Part shown: positions 583 to 9,752 of the stretch, piece by piece
Position numbering within the stretch: the first letter of the stretch is position 1
Layout of the letters: each line of letters begins with the position of its first letter
Assembly (NCBI GenBank): GCA_035502855.1
Contig: DATJTX010000017.1
Span: forward strand, 1 to 52,225
Direction of reading: 5' to 3'
DNA length: 52,225 bases
Origin: Candidatus Baltobacteraceae bacterium
GTDB taxonomy: Bacteria; Vulcanimicrobiota; Vulcanimicrobiia; Vulcanimicrobiales; Vulcanimicrobiaceae
Notes under the pieces: model-generated
What the model was told of the DNA's origin: nothing
Seen by the model: the letters and a program-made list of their open reading frames with translations, nothing else
The model's database searches: none
Position numbers and translations under genes: made by a program

Positions 583-604
583 AGCCAAATCGACAGTTTT
601 GGCT
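583..604 (+). terminator. Possible weak terminator hairpin after copy A
   Basis: AGCCAAA pairs with TTTGGCT across a short loop, 16 bases after the copy A stop codon. There is no long T-run, so termination is only possible. Confidence 0.3.
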
Positions 605-631
605 TGACAACGCTGCCCGGGCGAGTATGCT
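604..631 (+). promoter_or_regulatory. Sigma70-type promoter of the M-box/Mg2+ transport unit
   Basis: A perfect -35 box TTGACA (604-609) is followed after 16 bases by TATGCT (626-631). Predicted initiation near 638 falls just before the first conserved M-box base, which supports the assignment. Confidence 0.65.
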
Positions 632-639
632 TGTCGAGG

Positions 640-805
640 CTTCCTCGTTAGGTGAGGCGTCTGCACAAGAACAAGCCGCTGCCCAGAAAGGTCGAGAGAC
701 CCCAACGGGTTGACCAGATTCCGCCGAATCAAGGCGGAATCTAACGCGGCTGAGACCTTCGGGCCTCTACGGTGTGCAGTGCTAAAGCTCTACAGTGAGG
801 AGAGA
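640..805 (+). promoter_or_regulatory. M-box (ykoK leader) Mg2+ riboswitch
   Basis: The sequence carries the hallmark M-box blocks in order: TCGTTAGGTGAGGC near 644, CCGCTGCCCAGAAA near 680, a GGTCGAGAGACC hairpin followed by CCAACGGGT, a helix built from ATTCCGCC and GGCGGAAT, GCGGCTGAGACC, and the 3' block GTGCTAAAGCTCTACAG (about 779-795). These match my recollection of the ykoK/M-box consensus. M-box RNAs bind Mg2+ and usually stop transcription of Mg2+ transporter genes when Mg2+ is plentiful. Here it sits between a promoter and an intrinsic terminator, upstream of an Nramp-related Mg2+ transporter gene. Confidence 0.93.
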
Positions 806-837
806 TTCCGCGGCCTGGCCGCGCGAGTGTTTCTTGA

Positions 838-876
838 CTGTTGCCTGCGAGGACGTATGCGACAGTTTTTTATTTT
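838..876 (+). terminator. Riboswitch expression-platform terminator
   Basis: CTGTTGC (838-844) pairs perfectly with GCGACAG (859-865), directly followed by TTTTTTATTTTT. A GC-rich hairpin at 809-823 precedes it. This is the expected transcription-off structure of an M-box. Confidence 0.85.
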
Positions 877-1011
877 TGAGAGGGGGTGATGTCAAGCCAT
901 GGACGATGGACCGAGTAGTCGATCTAGCCGCAGGCTCGCAATGAGCCGTTTAATCCTGCCGTGCCCGTCTGTTTGGCGCGGCAAACCGTAACTTTTTAGG
1001 AGAGATGTGTC

Positions 1012-1155
1012 ATGAAGAAAATCTTGGCGCCCTTGCTTCGCGCTGCCCTCATGCGCCTTAACGGCGCGAACGAAGTTCACAACGATCTGCTTCGAGCAAA
1101 TCAGTTCAGCGATCGCCCTCCGATTGGTGTCTACCGTGCCATCCTCGGAGGATAA
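1012..1155 (+). CDS. Short leader ORF upstream of the NRMT transporter (47 aa)
   Basis: An ATG follows a good ribosome binding site (AGGAGA near 999). The ORF encodes 47 residues beginning MKKILAPLLRAALMRLNG and ending YRAILGG. Its stop lies 4 bases before the transporter ATG at 1160, and the transporter's GGAGG site is inside its last codons, so translation would be coupled. It shows no clear membrane segment and I recognise no family. It could be a leader peptide or a small protein of the transporter operon. Existence is inferred from the ribosome site and spacing alone. Confidence 0.45.
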   Translation: MKKILAPLLRAALMRLNGANEVHNDLLRANQFSDRPPIGVYRAILGG

Positions 1156-1159
1156 GCCA

Positions 1160-2776
1160 ATGGCAACGATAGTAGACGGCGCGCACCTGGATACGATGCA
1201 TGCGGGCGATATTCGCGGAGCATTCGGTACGATTGCCAAGAATGATACTGGCTCGCGCAAGGGTCTATGGGCGAAGCTCGTGGCTTTCGCGGCAATCGTC
1301 GGCCCGGGACTCATCGTCATGGTCGGCGACAACGACGCAGGCGCATTCTCGACCTACACGCAGGCTGGACAAAACTACGGTACGACACTGTTGTGGACCC
1401 TACTGCTATTGGTTCCCGTTCTCTTCGTAAACCAGGAGATGGTGCTGCGCCTTGGCGCCGTTACGCGCGTCGGCCACGCGAAACTCATCCTCGAGCGTTT
1501 TGGAAAGTTCTGGGGTGCTTTCAGCGTCATCGATCTGTTCATCCTCAACGCTCTAACGATCGTCACTGAATTCATCGGCATCAGCCTCGCGCTGGGCTAC
1601 TTCGGCGTCCCTAAGATTGCGGGCGTCGCCGTCGCGGCCGTGCTTGTCATGATGGGCGCGGCGACGGGAAGTTTTCGCCGCTTCGAGCGCTTTGCGATGT
1701 TGCTCTGCTTTGGAAGCCTGCTACTGATTCCGGTATTCGTGATGGTGCATGCGCCGATCGGGCAGTCAACACGTGACTTTCTAATACCGAGCATGCCGAG
1801 AGACTCGGACCTAGGAGTCGTCATGCTGCTCATTATCGGCATCGTCGGGACCACGGTAGCGCCGTGGCAGCTATTCTTCCAGCAGAGCTATGTCATCGAC
1901 AAGCGCATCACCACGCGCTGGCTCAACTACGAACGTTGGGACCTGGCTCTCGGCATTGTTTTCGTCGTGCTCGGCGCGTTCGCGATGTTCTCGTTTACTG
2001 CGGCCACGTTTGCGGGCCACAAGGAATTCGGCAATTTCCAGGACGCCGGCGCGGTTGCCGCGGGAATCGCGCACTACGTCGGGCGCCTCCCAGGCGATCT
2101 CTTCGCACTCGCCCTCCTGGACGCGGCGATTATTGGGGCCGCAGCGGTTTCGCTATCGACAGCCTATGCCATTGGCGACGTGATGTCGCTAAACCATTCG
2201 TTGCATCGCAAAGTCGGCGACGCGCCGGTCTTCTATCTCGTCTATGCGGGACTGATTGTTGTTGCGGCAACGATCGTGCTCATTCCCGGGAGCCCGCTCG
2301 GACTCTTGACGAACGCCGTACAGGTACTCGCGGGTGTGCTATTGCCGAGCGCGACCGTCTTCTTGCTACTGCTCTCCAATGACAAGGCGGTGCTGGGTCC
2401 TTGGGCAAACACGCGCCGTACGAACATCTTCACCGGCGTCGTTATCGCTGCATTGGTGATGCTCTCGGTAGTCCTCACCGCTGCAACGGTCTTCCCATCG
2501 ATCGGCACCATTCAGATTCTTTGGATTCTCGGCGTGGGAGCGATTCTAGCCGTTATTGCCGGCTTTTGGATGGCGTTCGTGCCAGGTGACATCGACTACA
2601 CGTCATTCGACCGTTCGCAGCGCCATCAGTGGCAGATGCCTTCGCTTAGCTCTCTCCCAAAGGTTCGCTTAAGTCTTGCTAACCGCTTTTGGCTTATCCT
2701 ACTAAGGGCATATCTGATTCTCGCCGTCGGGCTCGTGGTGTTCCGCGTTGCTCTCCTCGCGCTGCACAAAGGATAG
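1160..2776 (+). CDS. Nramp-related Mg2+ transporter (NRMT/NMgt-like)
   Basis: A 538-residue polytopic membrane protein of the Nramp superfamily. The ATG at 1160 is chosen because GGAGG lies 8 bases upstream; the frame is open from a TTG at 1124. TM1 reads GPGLIVMVGDNDAG (D57, N58, D59), not the DPGN of Mn2+/Fe2+ Nramps. TM6 reads GTTVAPWQLFFQQS, lacking the metal-binding methionine of MPH. Both changes are typical of the Nramp-related Mg2+ transporters described in Clostridium and Eggerthella. The upstream M-box independently points to Mg2+ rather than Mn2+. Downstream genes (porin, MgtC) read in the same direction with an 8-base gap or less, suggesting one Mg2+-controlled operon. Automated annotation would probably call it MntH. 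Confidence 0.88.
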   Translation: MATIVDGAHLDTMHAGDIRGAFGTIAKNDTGSRKGLWAKLVAFAAIVGPGLIVMVGDNDAGAFSTYTQAGQNYGTTLLWTLLLLVPVLFVNQEMVLRLGAVTRVGHAKLILERFGKFWGAFSVIDLFILNALTIVTEFIGISLALGYFGVPKIAGVAVAAVLVMMGAATGSFRRFERFAMLLCFGSLLLIPVFVMVHAPIGQSTRDFLIPSMPRDSDLGVVMLLIIGIVGTTVAPWQLFFQQSYVIDKRITTRWLNYERWDLALGIVFVVLGAFAMFSFTAATFAGHKEFGNFQDAGAVAAGIAHYVGRLPGDLFALALLDAAIIGAAAVSLSTAYAIGDVMSLNHSLHRKVGDAPVFYLVYAGLIVVAATIVLIPGSPLGLLTNAVQVLAGVLLPSATVFLLLLSNDKAVLGPWANTRRTNIFTGVVIAALVMLSVVLTAATVFPSIGTIQILWILGVGAILAVIAGFWMAFVPGDIDYTSFDRSQRHQWQMPSLSSLPKVRLSLANRFWLILLRAYLILAVGLVVFRVALLALHKG

Positions 2777-2783
2777 CGGGCCA

Positions 2784-4115
2784 ATGTTCTTCGCCGTTCT
2801 TTTGACGACCATCGGCGCAGCTATACCGGCGGTACCCATTCCAACGCCAAAAACGACCCCAACGCCGGCACCCGCTCGTTGGAGCGTACACTGGCAGGCA
2901 ACCAACACACAGCAGTACCATGGGGCCTTCCCCGCCGCGTACTCCGGCGCCAACAGCCTTTCGAATATGCCCGATACGCAGAAAACCTTTTCGTCGACGA
3001 TCTATTTGGGTTACCGTCTCTGGAAAGGCGCTGAGGCATTTTATAACGAGGACATCGACCAGGGCTTCGGCTTCGGCAGTACGCTCGGTCTTGCGGGCTT
3101 CTCGAGTGGCGAGGCATACAAGGTCGGTGCCTCACGTCCGTACGAGCGTGCGCACCAGTACTTCATCACTCAGACTTTCAATGAGGGCGGTGGCACACAG
3201 TCGGTCGATTCGGGACAAAATGTCATTGCCGGATCTCAAGACGTACGGAACATCACCCTTACTGGGGGGAAGTTCTCCGTCGTAAATATCTTTGACAACA
3301 ATGTCTATGCCCACGACCCACGCAATGATTTTTTGAATTGGTCGGTCGTCGATATGGGAGCATTCGATTACGCCGCCGACGCCTGGGGTTACACCTACGG
3401 GCTAGCGGCTTCGATCAACCGCGCGCAATCGGCCTTCACCGTTGGTCTCTTTCAACTGTCCAAGACGCCGAACACGACGGTCATCGAGAGGGTCCCATTT
3501 CTTCAGTATTCGCCAGTGTTGGAGTATGATCGCAATATGTCGCTCTTCGGCGGACATCCGGGAAAATTTCGCTTCTTGACCTACGGCGACTACGGATACA
3601 TGGCGCCACTAGCGGATACGATCTCATATGCCGCGGCTTCTGGCACGACGCCAAACCCGCTGTTGTTCCGTCAAAATCGCCACTGGAAGATCGGCGAAGG
3701 GGTCAATATCGAGCAAGAGCTCGCGCCCCACGTAGGCGCCTTCCTACGCTTGAGCGCAGACAACGGCTCGTATGAAGCGTTCGATTTCACCGAGATCGAC
3801 CGTTCGGCGGAACTTGGCCTTTCGGTCGACGGGACACCGTGGCATCGACCGAATGATACCGTGGGAATTGCCGCCGTCCAGAATTCGATATCCGCCGTTC
3901 GGCAACAGTATTTAGCAGACGGTGGTCTTGGAATCCTGATCGGCGACGGTGGACTATCATATGGACCCGAAAGCGTTCTCGAAACCTACTATAGATTCAT
4001 GATCTTCAAGGGGTTCTCGCTCAAGGGCGATTACCAACGCGTCGTTAACCCGGCGTACAACACGGTGCGCGGCCCCGTATCAATTTACACGCTCCAATTT
4101 CACTATCAGATCTAG
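2784..4115 (+). CDS. OprB-family carbohydrate-selective-type porin
   Basis: 443 residues from ATG 2784, whose ribosome site AAAGGA overlaps the end of the transporter gene. An N-terminal signal peptide (MFFAVLLTTIGAAIPA) is followed by a proline/threonine-rich linker. The body has OprB-like landmarks: W..HWQATNTQQYHGAF, YSGANSL, TIYLGYRLWKGAEAFYN, GFGFGSTLGLAGFSSGEAYKVG. It ends YTLQFHYQI, an aromatic-ending beta-strand typical of outer-membrane barrels. OprB porins usually pass sugars. Placed between an Mg2+ transporter and MgtC under an M-box, a role in Mg2+ passage across the outer membrane is inferred and not known for the family. Confidence 0.85.
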   Translation: MFFAVLLTTIGAAIPAVPIPTPKTTPTPAPARWSVHWQATNTQQYHGAFPAAYSGANSLSNMPDTQKTFSSTIYLGYRLWKGAEAFYNEDIDQGFGFGSTLGLAGFSSGEAYKVGASRPYERAHQYFITQTFNEGGGTQSVDSGQNVIAGSQDVRNITLTGGKFSVVNIFDNNVYAHDPRNDFLNWSVVDMGAFDYAADAWGYTYGLAASINRAQSAFTVGLFQLSKTPNTTVIERVPFLQYSPVLEYDRNMSLFGGHPGKFRFLTYGDYGYMAPLADTISYAAASGTTPNPLLFRQNRHWKIGEGVNIEQELAPHVGAFLRLSADNGSYEAFDFTEIDRSAELGLSVDGTPWHRPNDTVGIAAVQNSISAVRQQYLADGGLGILIGDGGLSYGPESVLETYYRFMIFKGFSLKGDYQRVVNPAYNTVRGPVSIYTLQFHYQI

Positions 4116-4125
4116 GTGGGATGCT

Positions 4126-4236
4126 ATGTTTGACAAGCGCGAACGGATGCAGCTCATCGCTCTGCTCGTCTATGGAGCGATCCTCATCGTCGGAGGTATC
4201 GTCGTGGTGCTTCGCTTCATAAGGGGAAGATTTTGA
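4126..4236 (+). CDS. 36-aa single-pass membrane peptide next to mgtC
   Basis: ATG 4126 opens a 36-residue ORF beginning MFDKRERMQLIALLVYG. A charged N-terminus is followed by one hydrophobic helix (about residues 9-29) and a basic end (RFIRGRF). The preceding bases include AGGTGGG at 4114-4120 as a possible ribosome site, and its stop TGA overlaps the TTG start of mgtC. Position and size recall small Mg2+-regulatory membrane peptides such as MgtR and MgtS, but no sequence similarity is claimed. It may modulate MgtC or the transporter. Confidence 0.55.
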   Translation: MFDKRERMQLIALLVYGAILIVGGIVVVLRFIRGRF

Positions 4237-4970
4237 CTAACGGCATGCCAGCCACCGAGCTCTTCGCCCTGCATGTCTTTGTCGCACTGCTGCTGGGCGT
4301 CGTGATCGGCCTCGAACGGCAATGGCGCCAACGCATGGCCGGCCTTCGTACAAATGCGTTGGTCGCTTTGGGCGCTGCGCTTTTTTCATCCATATCGATC
4401 CTGATGAACGCCGGAACAAACCCTACGCAGGTAGCGGCGTACGTCGTCTCCGGGACGGGTTTTCTCGCCGGTGCTGTGATTTTCAAGGAAGGCTTCAGCG
4501 TACGAGGCCTAAATACGGCCGCGACACTGTGGGCAACAGCTGCCGTGGGAACGCTTTGCGGTTCCGGGTTTCTTTCGGAGGCAACGATTGGCGCTGTTGC
4601 CGTGCTCGCGGCGAACGTTCTCCTTCGCCCGATTGTGCAACGGATTAACCGTCAGCCCTTCGGTCAGACCGAACTGTCGCAAGCCTATGAAATCACGGTG
4701 AGCTGCTCGGGCGCACATGAGGAAACCGTGCGCGCCGACGTGCTTGCCCAAATTCGGGTGACAACATTGCTCTTGCGCTCGTTAGAAAGCCGCAATCTTC
4801 AAGATGATCACGTTGTCGTTAAGGCGGTCGTCATTGCTAGCGACCGCGCCGACACGAAGCTCGAGCGCATTGTCGGACGCCTCAGCCTTGATCCGAAGAT
4901 CGTCGCCGCGAGCTGGCGTATGGCGGCCGTTTCCGACGACGAAACCCTGGAGTCGGCGCCCGAGGGGTGA
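4233..4970 (+). CDS. mgtC: MgtC/SapB family membrane protein
   Basis: 245 residues. The N-terminal half carries the MgtC signature FVALLLGVVIGLERQWRQRMAGLRTNALVALGAALF (quoted in part: GLERQWRQRMAGLRTNALV), then further hydrophobic segments and a soluble C-terminal domain ending about residue 235. TTG 4233 is preferred because AGGGGA lies 5 bases upstream; ATG 4245 is an alternative. MgtC proteins are tied to growth under low Mg2+ and inhibit F-type ATP synthase in Salmonella. It is the last gene of the M-box unit and ends within 30 bases of the remnant of the right radical SAM copy. Confidence 0.9.
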   Translation: MTNGMPATELFALHVFVALLLGVVIGLERQWRQRMAGLRTNALVALGAALFSSISILMNAGTNPTQVAAYVVSGTGFLAGAVIFKEGFSVRGLNTAATLWATAAVGTLCGSGFLSEATIGAVAVLAANVLLRPIVQRINRQPFGQTELSQAYEITVSCSGAHEETVRADVLAQIRVTTLLLRSLESRNLQDDHVVVKAVVIASDRADTKLERIVGRLSLDPKIVAASWRMAAVSDDETLESAPEG

Positions 4971-4980
4971 CTCTTTTGAG

Positions 4981-5802
4981 AAACCTCATATACAGGAAAA
5001 ATGCGGCTGCTACCACCAGTGCGTGTTTTGCTACGCTCGCCGCACCCACTCATATCTGGAGGAAGACGGCGTCGCACGCTGGGGCAGCCGCCTCTACGTC
5101 AAGGTCAACGCGCCGGCCGTCGTGCGCACCGAGCTGGCGAAACGCGGCTGGAAGCGCGAGCCGGTGGCGATCGGAACGGTGACCGACCCGTATCAGCCGC
5201 TGGAGGGTCGTTACGGGATCACGCGCGGCATTCTCGAGGCGATGCGCGACTATCGCTCGCCGGCCAATCTGATCACCCGATCACCGCTGATCGTGCGTGA
5301 CGTCGACGTGCTCGCCGATCTCGCCCGGGTCGCGAGCACGCACGTTTCGATCAGCATTGCCACGCTCGATGAACGGATCGCGCGCGAGATCGAACCAACC
5401 GTGGCGCCGCCGCGCCAGCGCCTGCGCGCGGTGCGCATGCTGGCCGAAGCGGGCATTCACGTCAACGTTGCGCTCGCGCCGGTGCTGCCGCAAATCACCG
5501 ATACGCCCGAGTCGATCGACGCCGTCGTCAAAGCCGCGCGCGACGCCGGCGCCGCCAAGGTCTGGCATAACACCCTCTACTTGCATGACGTGACACGTGA
5601 CGCATTTTTTGGTTACCTGCGCGAGCACCGGCCGGAGCTGATCGCGCAGTACGCGCAGCTCTATCGCGGGACCTACGCGCCGCGCGCCGTCGCGGATCGA
5701 GTCGAAGAGGAAGTCCACGGTGCACTCGAGCGCAACCCGGCGCGAGCACTGCCGCGCATCCGCAGCGAAGCTACCGTCCAGCTCTCGCTCCTGTCACCCT
5801 GA
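4981..5802 (+). pseudogene. Radical SAM protein (Rv2578c-like) copy B, 5'-truncated
   Basis: The homologous part starts at the 4Fe-4S site: CYHQCVFCYARRTHSYLEEDG contains CxxxCxxC (Cys at codons 5008, 5020, 5029). It continues with LYVKVNAPAVV, EPVAIGTVTDPYQPLEGRYG and an intact C-terminus. The usual N-terminal region before the NPYxGC motif is missing: the codons read K-P-H-I-Q-E-K-C-G-C, as if NPYI-GC had been broken. The frame stays open back to 4804 only by running through mgtC in another frame. Codon use is GC-rich like the rest of the chromosome, so this is probably the native gene's 3' part, beheaded by the island. Expression of a shortened protein from a start near 5001 would still include the cysteines and is not excluded. 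Confidence 0.75.
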
Positions 5803-8073: not shown

Positions 8074-8484
8074 CTAGCGTACCACGGCGAGCAATACCAG
8101 CGTCGCGAGCGTCGTGAGATGCAGGAGCAAATGCAGCGTGTTCGGCGTCACGCTCTTGCGGCGTCCCCGCTGTGACGGGAGGAGATACGGTATCCACCAC
8201 GCCTGGACTTGGCCGAGGAAGAACGCGCCGTAGCTGATCCACAGCCACGCATAGAGCCAGCCCGGGTACGGCGTGTAGCGATAGAACGCGCTGCACACGA
8301 GGCCGAAGGCAAACGGCAATGTTTGCAGTGCGGTCACCGTCACCAGTTGGGTCAGTGTCCGTTCCGGACGCATCGTCCGCACGCGATTGAAACGCCCGAG
8401 CGGAAGCCAATCCTGCAGCGCAAGAATGGTCACGTTCAACCCCTGCAGTGCGAGCAAGAGATCTCGCACGACCGCCCCGTTCAT
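8074..8484 (-). CDS. Small multi-pass membrane protein of unknown function
   Basis: 136 residues from ATG 8484, which overlaps the purD stop (ATGA). Hydrophobic segments are at about residues 7-25, 46-66, 75-97 and 117-134, with aromatic-rich stretches (YRYTPYPGWLYAWLWISYGAFF). I recognise no family. The overlap implies co-translation with purD. Confidence 0.7.
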   Translation of the reverse strand: MNGAVVRDLLLALQGLNVTILALQDWLPLGRFNRVRTMRPERTLTQLVTVTALQTLPFAFGLVCSAFYRYTPYPGWLYAWLWISYGAFFLGQVQAWWIPYLLPSQRGRRKSVTPNTLHLLLHLTTLATLVLLAVVR

Positions 8485-9752
8485 CAGACGCGCGCGATGT
8501 CGGTTCGATAGGTGAGGCCGGTCGTGCCGATGCGGCCGGCCAGCGCGCGCACCGCTTCGTAGGAACGCACCCGCGCGCTTGACAGATCGTCGCCCAGCGC
8601 GGTAACCGTGAGCACGCGTCCGCCGCTGCTGCGCACGCGTCCGTCGGCGAGCGAACTGCCGCCCCAAAACACGTGCACGCCCTCGCCCAGCGCAACGTCG
8701 GGATTCAATCCGGGAAGCGGCGTGCTGCTGCGCGGATAGTCGCCGGTCGCGAGCACGACGCCGACACAATGCTGCTCGGAAAGCGAGGTAAGACTCAAAT
8801 CCATCGCTCCATCGGCACACGAACGCAACAAGCCGGCGAAATCGCCGCGGATCCGCGGCATCAGCACCTGCGTTTCGGGATCGCCGAACCGTGCGTTGAA
8901 CTCGATGACGTAGGGTCCCTCGGCCGTCCACATCAGGCCGCAATAGAGCACGCCGATGTATTGCTCGCTCTCGGCCAGCAAACCGCGCAAGACCGGCGAG
9001 AGAATGCGCTCGCGTACCGCATCGAAGAGGTCGTCGGGAAAACCGTGGGGCGGCGAATACGCGCCCATGCCGCCGGTGTTGGGACCGGTATCGCCGTCGC
9101 CGGCGCGTTTGTAGTCGCAGGCAGCGGCGAGCGGAACCATTGCGCGTCCGTCGGCTAGCGCGAAAACGCTCACTTCTCGACCTTCCAGTCGCTCCTCGAG
9201 CAGCAGATCGCTCCCGCCGCCCGGAACTTTGTTCTTGCCGTACCACTCGGCGACGACGGCGCGTGCATCGTCGATACGCTCACACACCACCACGCCCTTG
9301 CCGGCGGCGAGGCCGTCGGCTTTCACCACGACGCCGTCACCCGACCAATCGTCGAGTGCGCCGTTCGCATTGGAAAGCGAATGGACGACCACGGCGCGCG
9401 CGGTCGGCACGCCATGCCGCTGCATGAAGCGTTTGGAAAAAACCTTGCTCGACTCGAGCCGTCCGCCCGAGCGATTCGGTCCGAACACGAGCACGCCCGC
9501 GTCGCGCAAACGGTCGCCGACGCCTGCCGCGATCGCCGACTCCGGACCGAGCACCACCAGATCGATCTCCTCCGCCTGCACGCGCTCGACGATCGCCTTG
9601 CCGTCGGTCGCGGCGATTTCCCAATTCACGCCGCGCGAGGCCGTGCCCACGTTTCCCGGCGCGGCAAAGACCGCACTGCACGACGGCGACTGCGCCAGCC
9701 GCCACGCGAGCGCATCCTCACGCGCGCCATTGCCGACCACGAGAATTCTCAA
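8484..9752 (-). CDS. purD: Phosphoribosylamine-glycine ligase (GAR synthetase)
   Basis: Second step of de novo purine synthesis: phosphoribosylamine + glycine + ATP to GAR. ATP-grasp enzyme with N-terminal RILVVGNGAREDALAW, ATP-grasp segments SKVFSKRFMQRHGVPTA, VVVKADGLAAGKGVVVC, GPNTGGMGAYSPP, and YVIEFNARFGDPETQVLMPR. About 422 residues, normal length. TTG 9752 is preferred because GGGG lies 6 bases upstream and TTGA overlaps the stop of the PIN-like gene; GTG 9764 is the alternative and would add 4 residues. It is separated from guaA by two lower-GC genes. Confidence 0.95.
   Translation of the reverse strand: MRILVVGNGAREDALAWRLAQSPSCSAVFAAPGNVGTASRGVNWEIAATDGKAIVERVQAEEIDLVVLGPESAIAAGVGDRLRDAGVLVFGPNRSGGRLESSKVFSKRFMQRHGVPTARAVVVHSLSNANGALDDWSGDGVVVKADGLAAGKGVVVCERIDDARAVVAEWYGKNKVPGGGSDLLLEERLEGREVSVFALADGRAMVPLAAACDYKRAGDGDTGPNTGGMGAYSPPHGFPDDLFDAVRERILSPVLRGLLAESEQYIGVLYCGLMWTAEGPYVIEFNARFGDPETQVLMPRIRGDFAGLLRSCADGAMDLSLTSLSEQHCVGVVLATGDYPRSSTPLPGLNPDVALGEGVHVFWGGSSLADGRVRSSGGRVLTVTALGDDLSSARVRSYEAVRALAGRIGTTGLTYRTDIARV

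Follow-up and report, generated by a model that had tools for sequence, protein, structure and literature searches.

We analysed a Mg2+ riboswitch unit in a 52,225-nucleotide window (contig DATJTX010000017.1 of assembly GCA_035502855.1, Candidatus Baltobacteraceae bacterium) that belongs to a 3.33-Mb genome. The leader elements and genes of the unit all lie on the + strand and are tightly packed. A promoter, an M-box aptamer, an intrinsic terminator and two short upstream open reading frames (ORFs; uORF1, and uORF2 of a family here called pep47) precede genes for an Nramp-related transporter (1160–2776), an OprB-family outer-membrane porin (2784–4115), a putative 36-aa membrane peptide (4126–4236) and MgtC (4233–4970). 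The transporter and porin genes are 7 bases apart, the porin gene and the 36-aa ORF 10 bases apart, and the 36-aa ORF overlaps mgtC by 4 bases, as expected from an initial annotation of the sequence that had put the gaps beyond the leader at 10 bases or fewer. The same annotation described the operon as complete, which it was not, the two conserved leader ORFs having been overlooked.

The promoter claimed by that annotation, a sigma-70-like TTGACA-N16-TATGCT found by pattern scan (604–631; 10/12 matches), is no better than chance as a bare pattern (2 found versus 2.3 expected in 5.4 kb); a promoter of the TTGAC...TAT type lies at about equal distance 5′ of the M-box in 11 other loci. The RF00380 covariance model recovers a full-length M-box aptamer at 637–806 (131.5 bits, cut-off 44; E 2.2e-29; model positions 1–169), the sole M-box in this genome by a genome-wide covariance search. 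The expected terminator follows 30–71 bases 3′ of the aptamer as a hairpin (836–865; about −15 kcal/mol) with a U-rich run (866–877), and a standard pattern scan overlooks it because its loop rules exclude this hairpin. The inner part of the terminator, CCUGCGAGGA (844–853), is complementary to the 5′ arm of aptamer stem P1, UUCCUCGUUAGG (641–652), its proposed partner at low Mg2+. A duplex between the first 30 nucleotides of the aptamer and the terminator hairpin is computed at about −19.9 kcal/mol, versus about −13 to −16 kcal/mol for the hairpin alone.

These elements recur across the phylum Eremiobacterota, in which we surveyed 149 genomes, read 118 M-box loci and sorted their downstream genes with profiles. 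The UCCUCGUUAGG part of the P1 arm is present in 66 of the 118 aptamers, and a hairpin with a U run was detected in 76 of 116 leaders scanned. Of 73 terminators, 34 carry the anti-P1 sequence CGAGGA at the corresponding place, whereas shuffling predicts 0.75. The GAGGA core is common in terminators of barrel-carrying and other units; none of the 21 mgtE_N-type terminators contains it, and these must rely on another expression platform. Because the terminator carries an anti-P1 sequence that is frequent in related terminators, the anatomy of a transcriptional switch that is OFF at high Mg2+ is well supported, and the leader would be predicted to function as such. A separate case is locus L194 of genome G037 (8250–8900), which retains the promoter, the start of P1, the terminator, uORF1 and pep47, with a repeat-like stretch as the aptamer core, an apparent case of the sensor having been lost naturally from an otherwise intact leader.

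The transporter (P0005, 538 aa, of a lineage designated NRMT_A) matches Pfam Nramp at 255.7 bits. Its nearest solved protein is EleNRMT of Eggerthella lenta (PDB 7qia; E 3e-49, 171 bits), a Mg2+ transporter (PMC8806188), and the next solved Nramp reaches 63 bits. The published NRMT motif rule is DxxG in helix 1 and TxxA/T in helix 6 (PMC8806188). Helix 6 of P0005 reads TTVA and fits the rule, with alanine in place of the helix-6 methionine as in EleNRMT; helix 1 reads DAGA, a DxxA form common to all listed members of the NRMT_A lineage, in contrast to the DxxG of EleNRMT. In a phylogenetic tree the transporter, EleNRMT and a group designated NRMT_B split from two canonical Nramps with 100/100 support, and the transporter occupies its own branch beside EleNRMT and NRMT_B, among long branches (approximately unbiased test, p 0.249). 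The earlier label NRMT holds as to the nearest solved relative and helix 6; it is unproven overall, since helix 1 departs from DxxG and the protein appears to form a separate, deep branch beside the known NRMTs. Profile searches of the genome detected neither CorA nor an MgtE channel domain, which leaves Nramp-type proteins as the apparent candidates for taking up Mg2+. Mg2+ is the likely substrate of this transporter. Another NRMT_B-type protein (DVGG, TTIS) is encoded on contig C21 without an M-box. The same contig encodes a further Nramp-family protein (G000, C21:229311–230363, L231), closest to EleNRMT (221 bits), whose DTEA and AVIM motifs match neither NRMTs nor canonical Nramps.

The porin (P0001, 443 aa) matches Pfam OprB (PF04966) over residues 57–441, nearly the whole protein, at 91.4 bits (cut-off 22.9), in agreement with its original description as OprB-like. 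It is nevertheless divergent, the other OprB of the genome scoring 291 bits. Relatives with 55–56% identity lie in M-box units of two other genomes (G047 and G127). Sequence search returned no solved structure for the porin, and a single-sequence model reached a predicted local distance difference test (pLDDT) score of only 30. An unrelated protein, Barrel2, stands in place of OprB in most barrel-carrying units. It is about 630 aa long, with a signal-like start and a Pro/Ser-rich linker, and none of 34 members matches a Pfam family, nor is there an NCBIfam family. A model built from 34 sequences (pLDDT 85.1, predicted template modelling score 0.83) contains about two dozen strands and matches mostly outer-membrane proteins of many kinds, including channels (Z 13–15). 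Barrel2 is therefore modelled as an outer-membrane β-barrel, an assignment of fold class only and of neither family nor substrate.

M-boxes were found in 96 of the 149 genomes. MgtE_N–NRMT_B is the commonest layout (38 loci), and NRMT_B stands alone in 24 loci. An outer-membrane barrel is present in 31 M-box units from 31 genomes and 12 genera, as Barrel2 in 27 and as OprB in four, one of them a fragment. Barrel2 is the sole profiled gene in six of these units, and OprB in one. Gene orders include pep47–Barrel2–NRMT_B–MgtC, pep47–OprB–NRMT_B, NRMT_A–MgtC–Barrel2, NRMT_A–Barrel2–MgtC and pep47–NRMT_A–OprB–MgtC. The two barrel families replace each other in identical slots: G047 has pep47–OprB–NRMT_B where its congeners have pep47–Barrel2–NRMT_B–MgtC, and the present NRMT_A–OprB–MgtC corresponds to NRMT_A–Barrel2–MgtC in G118. 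In a sister species of the same genus the order is pep47–NRMT_B–Barrel2, with transporter and barrel both exchanged and the leader ORF retained. Such swapping speaks for a need for some outer-membrane barrel in these units, whichever family supplies it. Membership of the porin in the Mg2+ unit, previously put forward as inference, is well supported by this recurrence, by the swapping and by the transporter-free units. As a side observation, MgtE_N–NRMT_B units are often followed by a gene of cluster c4 (21 loci) and a glutamine-synthetase-like gene (cluster c3, 25 loci), as downstream of the NRMT_B gene in L055 (G099) and L142 (G116), and possibly form a longer operon.

uORF1 (899–991; 30 aa, MDDGPSSRSSRRLAMSRLILPCPSVWRGKP) starts MDDGPSS, has a Shine–Dalgarno sequence AGAGGGGGTGA at 879–889 and can be aligned in 40 related leaders. 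Downstream of the terminator these leaders keep AAAGGGGGTGA, about 10 bases and then a start codon, ATG in 28 and GTG in 12, followed by GAC GAY GGN or GAC GGN. In the 25 leaders that begin MDDG or VDDG, variation in codons 3 and 4 is confined to the third base. We read uORF1 as a translated ORF, usually of 18–36 aa, whose start is conserved and whose end varies freely. Where uORF2 exists, uORF1 stops 8–30 bases before it. uORF2 (1012–1155; 47 aa) has a clear ribosome-binding site (AGGAGAG at 998) and the motif H[ND]DxLRANQ; it is kept in 24 M-box loci, with differences of 263/209/414 by codon position, and matches no Pfam or NCBIfam family above cut-off. Contig C21 of this genome carries a pep47 paralogue directly 5′ of a Barrel2 gene (G000, L193 2744–4798), and no degenerate M-box was found before that pair at E values up to 5. 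The paralogue makes it probable that pep47 is an independent protein and not merely a leader. A search of Rfam for a second RNA family in 860–1020 found nothing. In the sister-species locus L031 (G033), a weak second pep47-like match lies upstream of the M-box (G033:C129:23336–23446).

At the distal end, MgtC combines a membrane domain (PF02308, 123.2 bits) with the C-terminal domain MgtC_SapB_C (PF21770, 73.3 bits), which bears out its earlier identification. The gene starts with a TTG that overlaps the 36-aa ORF, giving 245 aa, or alternatively with an ATG at 4245, giving 241 aa; MgtC is also found downstream in further M-box units of the phylum. The 36-aa ORF exists as described and contains one hydrophobic segment, and no homologue was detected in the 118 M-box loci, making it the least certain part of the unit. 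It recalls MgtR of Salmonella, reported as a small hydrophobic peptide linked with mgtC (PMC6813294); its position 5′ of mgtC is a difference from MgtR.

This Mg2+ riboswitch unit is real, recurs in related genomes and is functionally coherent; the outer-membrane barrel is its unusual part. We consider it probable that it operates as a Mg2+-OFF operon through which Mg2+ starvation would increase passage across the outer membrane, import across the inner membrane and MgtC at the same time. With ample Mg2+, the M-box would close stem P1 and the terminator would halt transcription. At low Mg2+, the 5′ arm of P1 would instead pair with the inner terminator and block the hairpin, and polymerase would then read through both leader ORFs into one message encoding the Nramp-type importer, the OprB porin, the small membrane peptide and MgtC. 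The porin could raise the passage of Mg2+, or a Mg2+ complex, into the periplasm, from which the Nramp-related protein would move Mg2+ into the cell, and MgtC would adapt the cell to the shortage. The recurrence of the M-box with a barrel in 31 genomes suggests that Mg2+ entry through both membranes is controlled together. Several observations weigh against this model. OprB porins are named for carbohydrates, and the transporter departs at one position from the published NRMT motif. A relative of this OprB was found in 10 genomes, and in 6 of them it lies outside an M-box unit. Barrel2 occurs in 57 of the 149 genomes, in an M-box unit in 27 among the loci read, and about half of the Barrel2 genomes carry it outside such a unit; some of the remaining occurrences are contig ends that are probably part of M-box units, as at L217 and L221, each of which starts or stops next to an NRMT gene. 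Moreover, when P1 arms and terminators were swapped between genera, own and foreign partners behaved alike because both sequences are conserved, and no covariation was shown.

A less likely reading is that the porin is not a Mg2+ carrier but an envelope-maintenance or organic-solute gene induced in Mg2+ starvation, with Mg2+ shortage signalling envelope stress, for example by destabilising the outer leaflet. The carbohydrate-selective annotation of OprB and the barrels found away from M-boxes speak for it, as does the fact that MgtC is regarded as an adaptation factor and not as a transporter. Such a role fits less well with barrels that mostly share their unit with Mg2+-type importers and are the sole profiled M-box target in six, or with the mycobacterial PE20–PPE31 pair, which is under an M-box and on which growth depends when Mg2+ and pH are both low (PMC12810186). 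We also think it unlikely that translation of the two leader ORFs, through attenuation or translational coupling, largely governs expression and leaves the M-box as one of two inputs. Both ORFs are conserved past the terminator and closely spaced, and an M-box in Mycobacterium tuberculosis controls a uORF too (PMC12810186). Asp2 and Asp3 of uORF1 further recall Asp2 and Glu5 of Salmonella mgtQ, whose codons impede mgtQ translation and raise that of mgtB (PMC8092293); acidic residues soon after the start of a short ORF, in a message for Mg2+ transport, may offer a lead by analogy, the genes and the position being different. In 11 leaders, a search for a common structure that would occlude the ribosome-binding site of uORF2 gave none that was consistent, which speaks against this form of control.

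That the transporter carries Mn2+ or another divalent metal, to which the M-box would here respond, appears improbable. Nramp transporters are mostly Mn2+/Fe2+ carriers, and this one is a deep branch with DxxA in place of DxxG. Against this, its TTVA motif lacks the helix-6 methionine kept by transition-metal Nramps (PMC8806188), its closest solved relative transports Mg2+, the tree parts it from the two canonical Nramps with full support, and the aptamer is a strong, full-length M-box. The genes could finally be chance neighbours, with the porin outside the riboswitch unit; OprB instead of Barrel2 is found in only the four M-box units, including the fragment. Given the gaps of 7 and 10 bases and the recurrence of a barrel across 12 genera (31 units), we regard this as very improbable, and the exchange of two barrel families in identical operon slots itself argues that the porin is no chance neighbour. 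Beyond the Mg2+-OFF operon model, we offer only tentatively a scheme in which Eremiobacterota would use one RNA switch for both membranes through dedicated outer-membrane Mg2+ channels of two barrel families, with uORF1 as a second Mg2+ sensor: its acidic start (MDD/MDG) would destabilise ribosomes at low Mg2+ and so set the translation of pep47, which would serve the barrel or the transporter.

The closest parallel is the M. tuberculosis pe20 operon, composed of an M-box, uORF1, uORF2/Rv1805A, PE20, PPE31, PPE32, PPE33, Rv1810 and MgtC, in which uORF2/Rv1805A is called specific to mycobacteria, bacteria short of Mg2+ at low pH need PE20–PPE31 to grow, and the PE/PPE proteins are proposed to be part of a Mg2+ transporter (PMC12810186). 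Both units begin with the M-box, carry a pair of leader ORFs, the second being the well-conserved member, and continue to mgtC. The pe20 operon has PE/PPE proteins and no Nramp-type transporter, whereas the units described here have OprB or Barrel2 barrels and an Nramp-type importer; Pfam profiles detected no PE/PPE genes in the gene content of the window unit. Control is Rho-dependent and translational in the former, in contrast to the intrinsic terminator here. The present unit works like the pe20 operon but is not a member of it, because it has another expression platform and other genes separating the leader from mgtC. M-box mgtE_N–nramp (nrmT) operons likewise place an M-box before an Nramp-related Mg2+ transporter (Shin et al. 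2014, PMC4072509), a layout that is also the commonest in this phylum. They are reported with neither an outer-membrane barrel nor MgtC, whereas the present unit has no MgtE_N protein.

Mg2+ is usually assumed to cross the outer membrane passively, via general porins. An M-box that recurrently governs barrels, sometimes with no transporter beside them, implies that some diderms may regulate the outer-membrane step, for which the survey names OprB and Barrel2 as candidate proteins. An arrangement that resembles the M. tuberculosis M-box–uORF–PE20/PPE31–mgtC operon, made of other proteins in an unrelated phylum, also bears on the roles of PE/PPE proteins and MgtC in mycobacteria. Among open papers we found none that reports an M-box together with a porin in organisms other than mycobacteria, and the literature yielded no earlier description of the two leader ORFs or of the barrel without a Pfam family.

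On both sides of the operon lie pieces of paralogous radical-SAM (SPL-like) genes, at 1–567 and about 4990–5802. The contig start truncates the upstream piece, and the downstream one lacks a clear start. Possibly the operon was inserted next to, or within, a duplicated radical-SAM gene.

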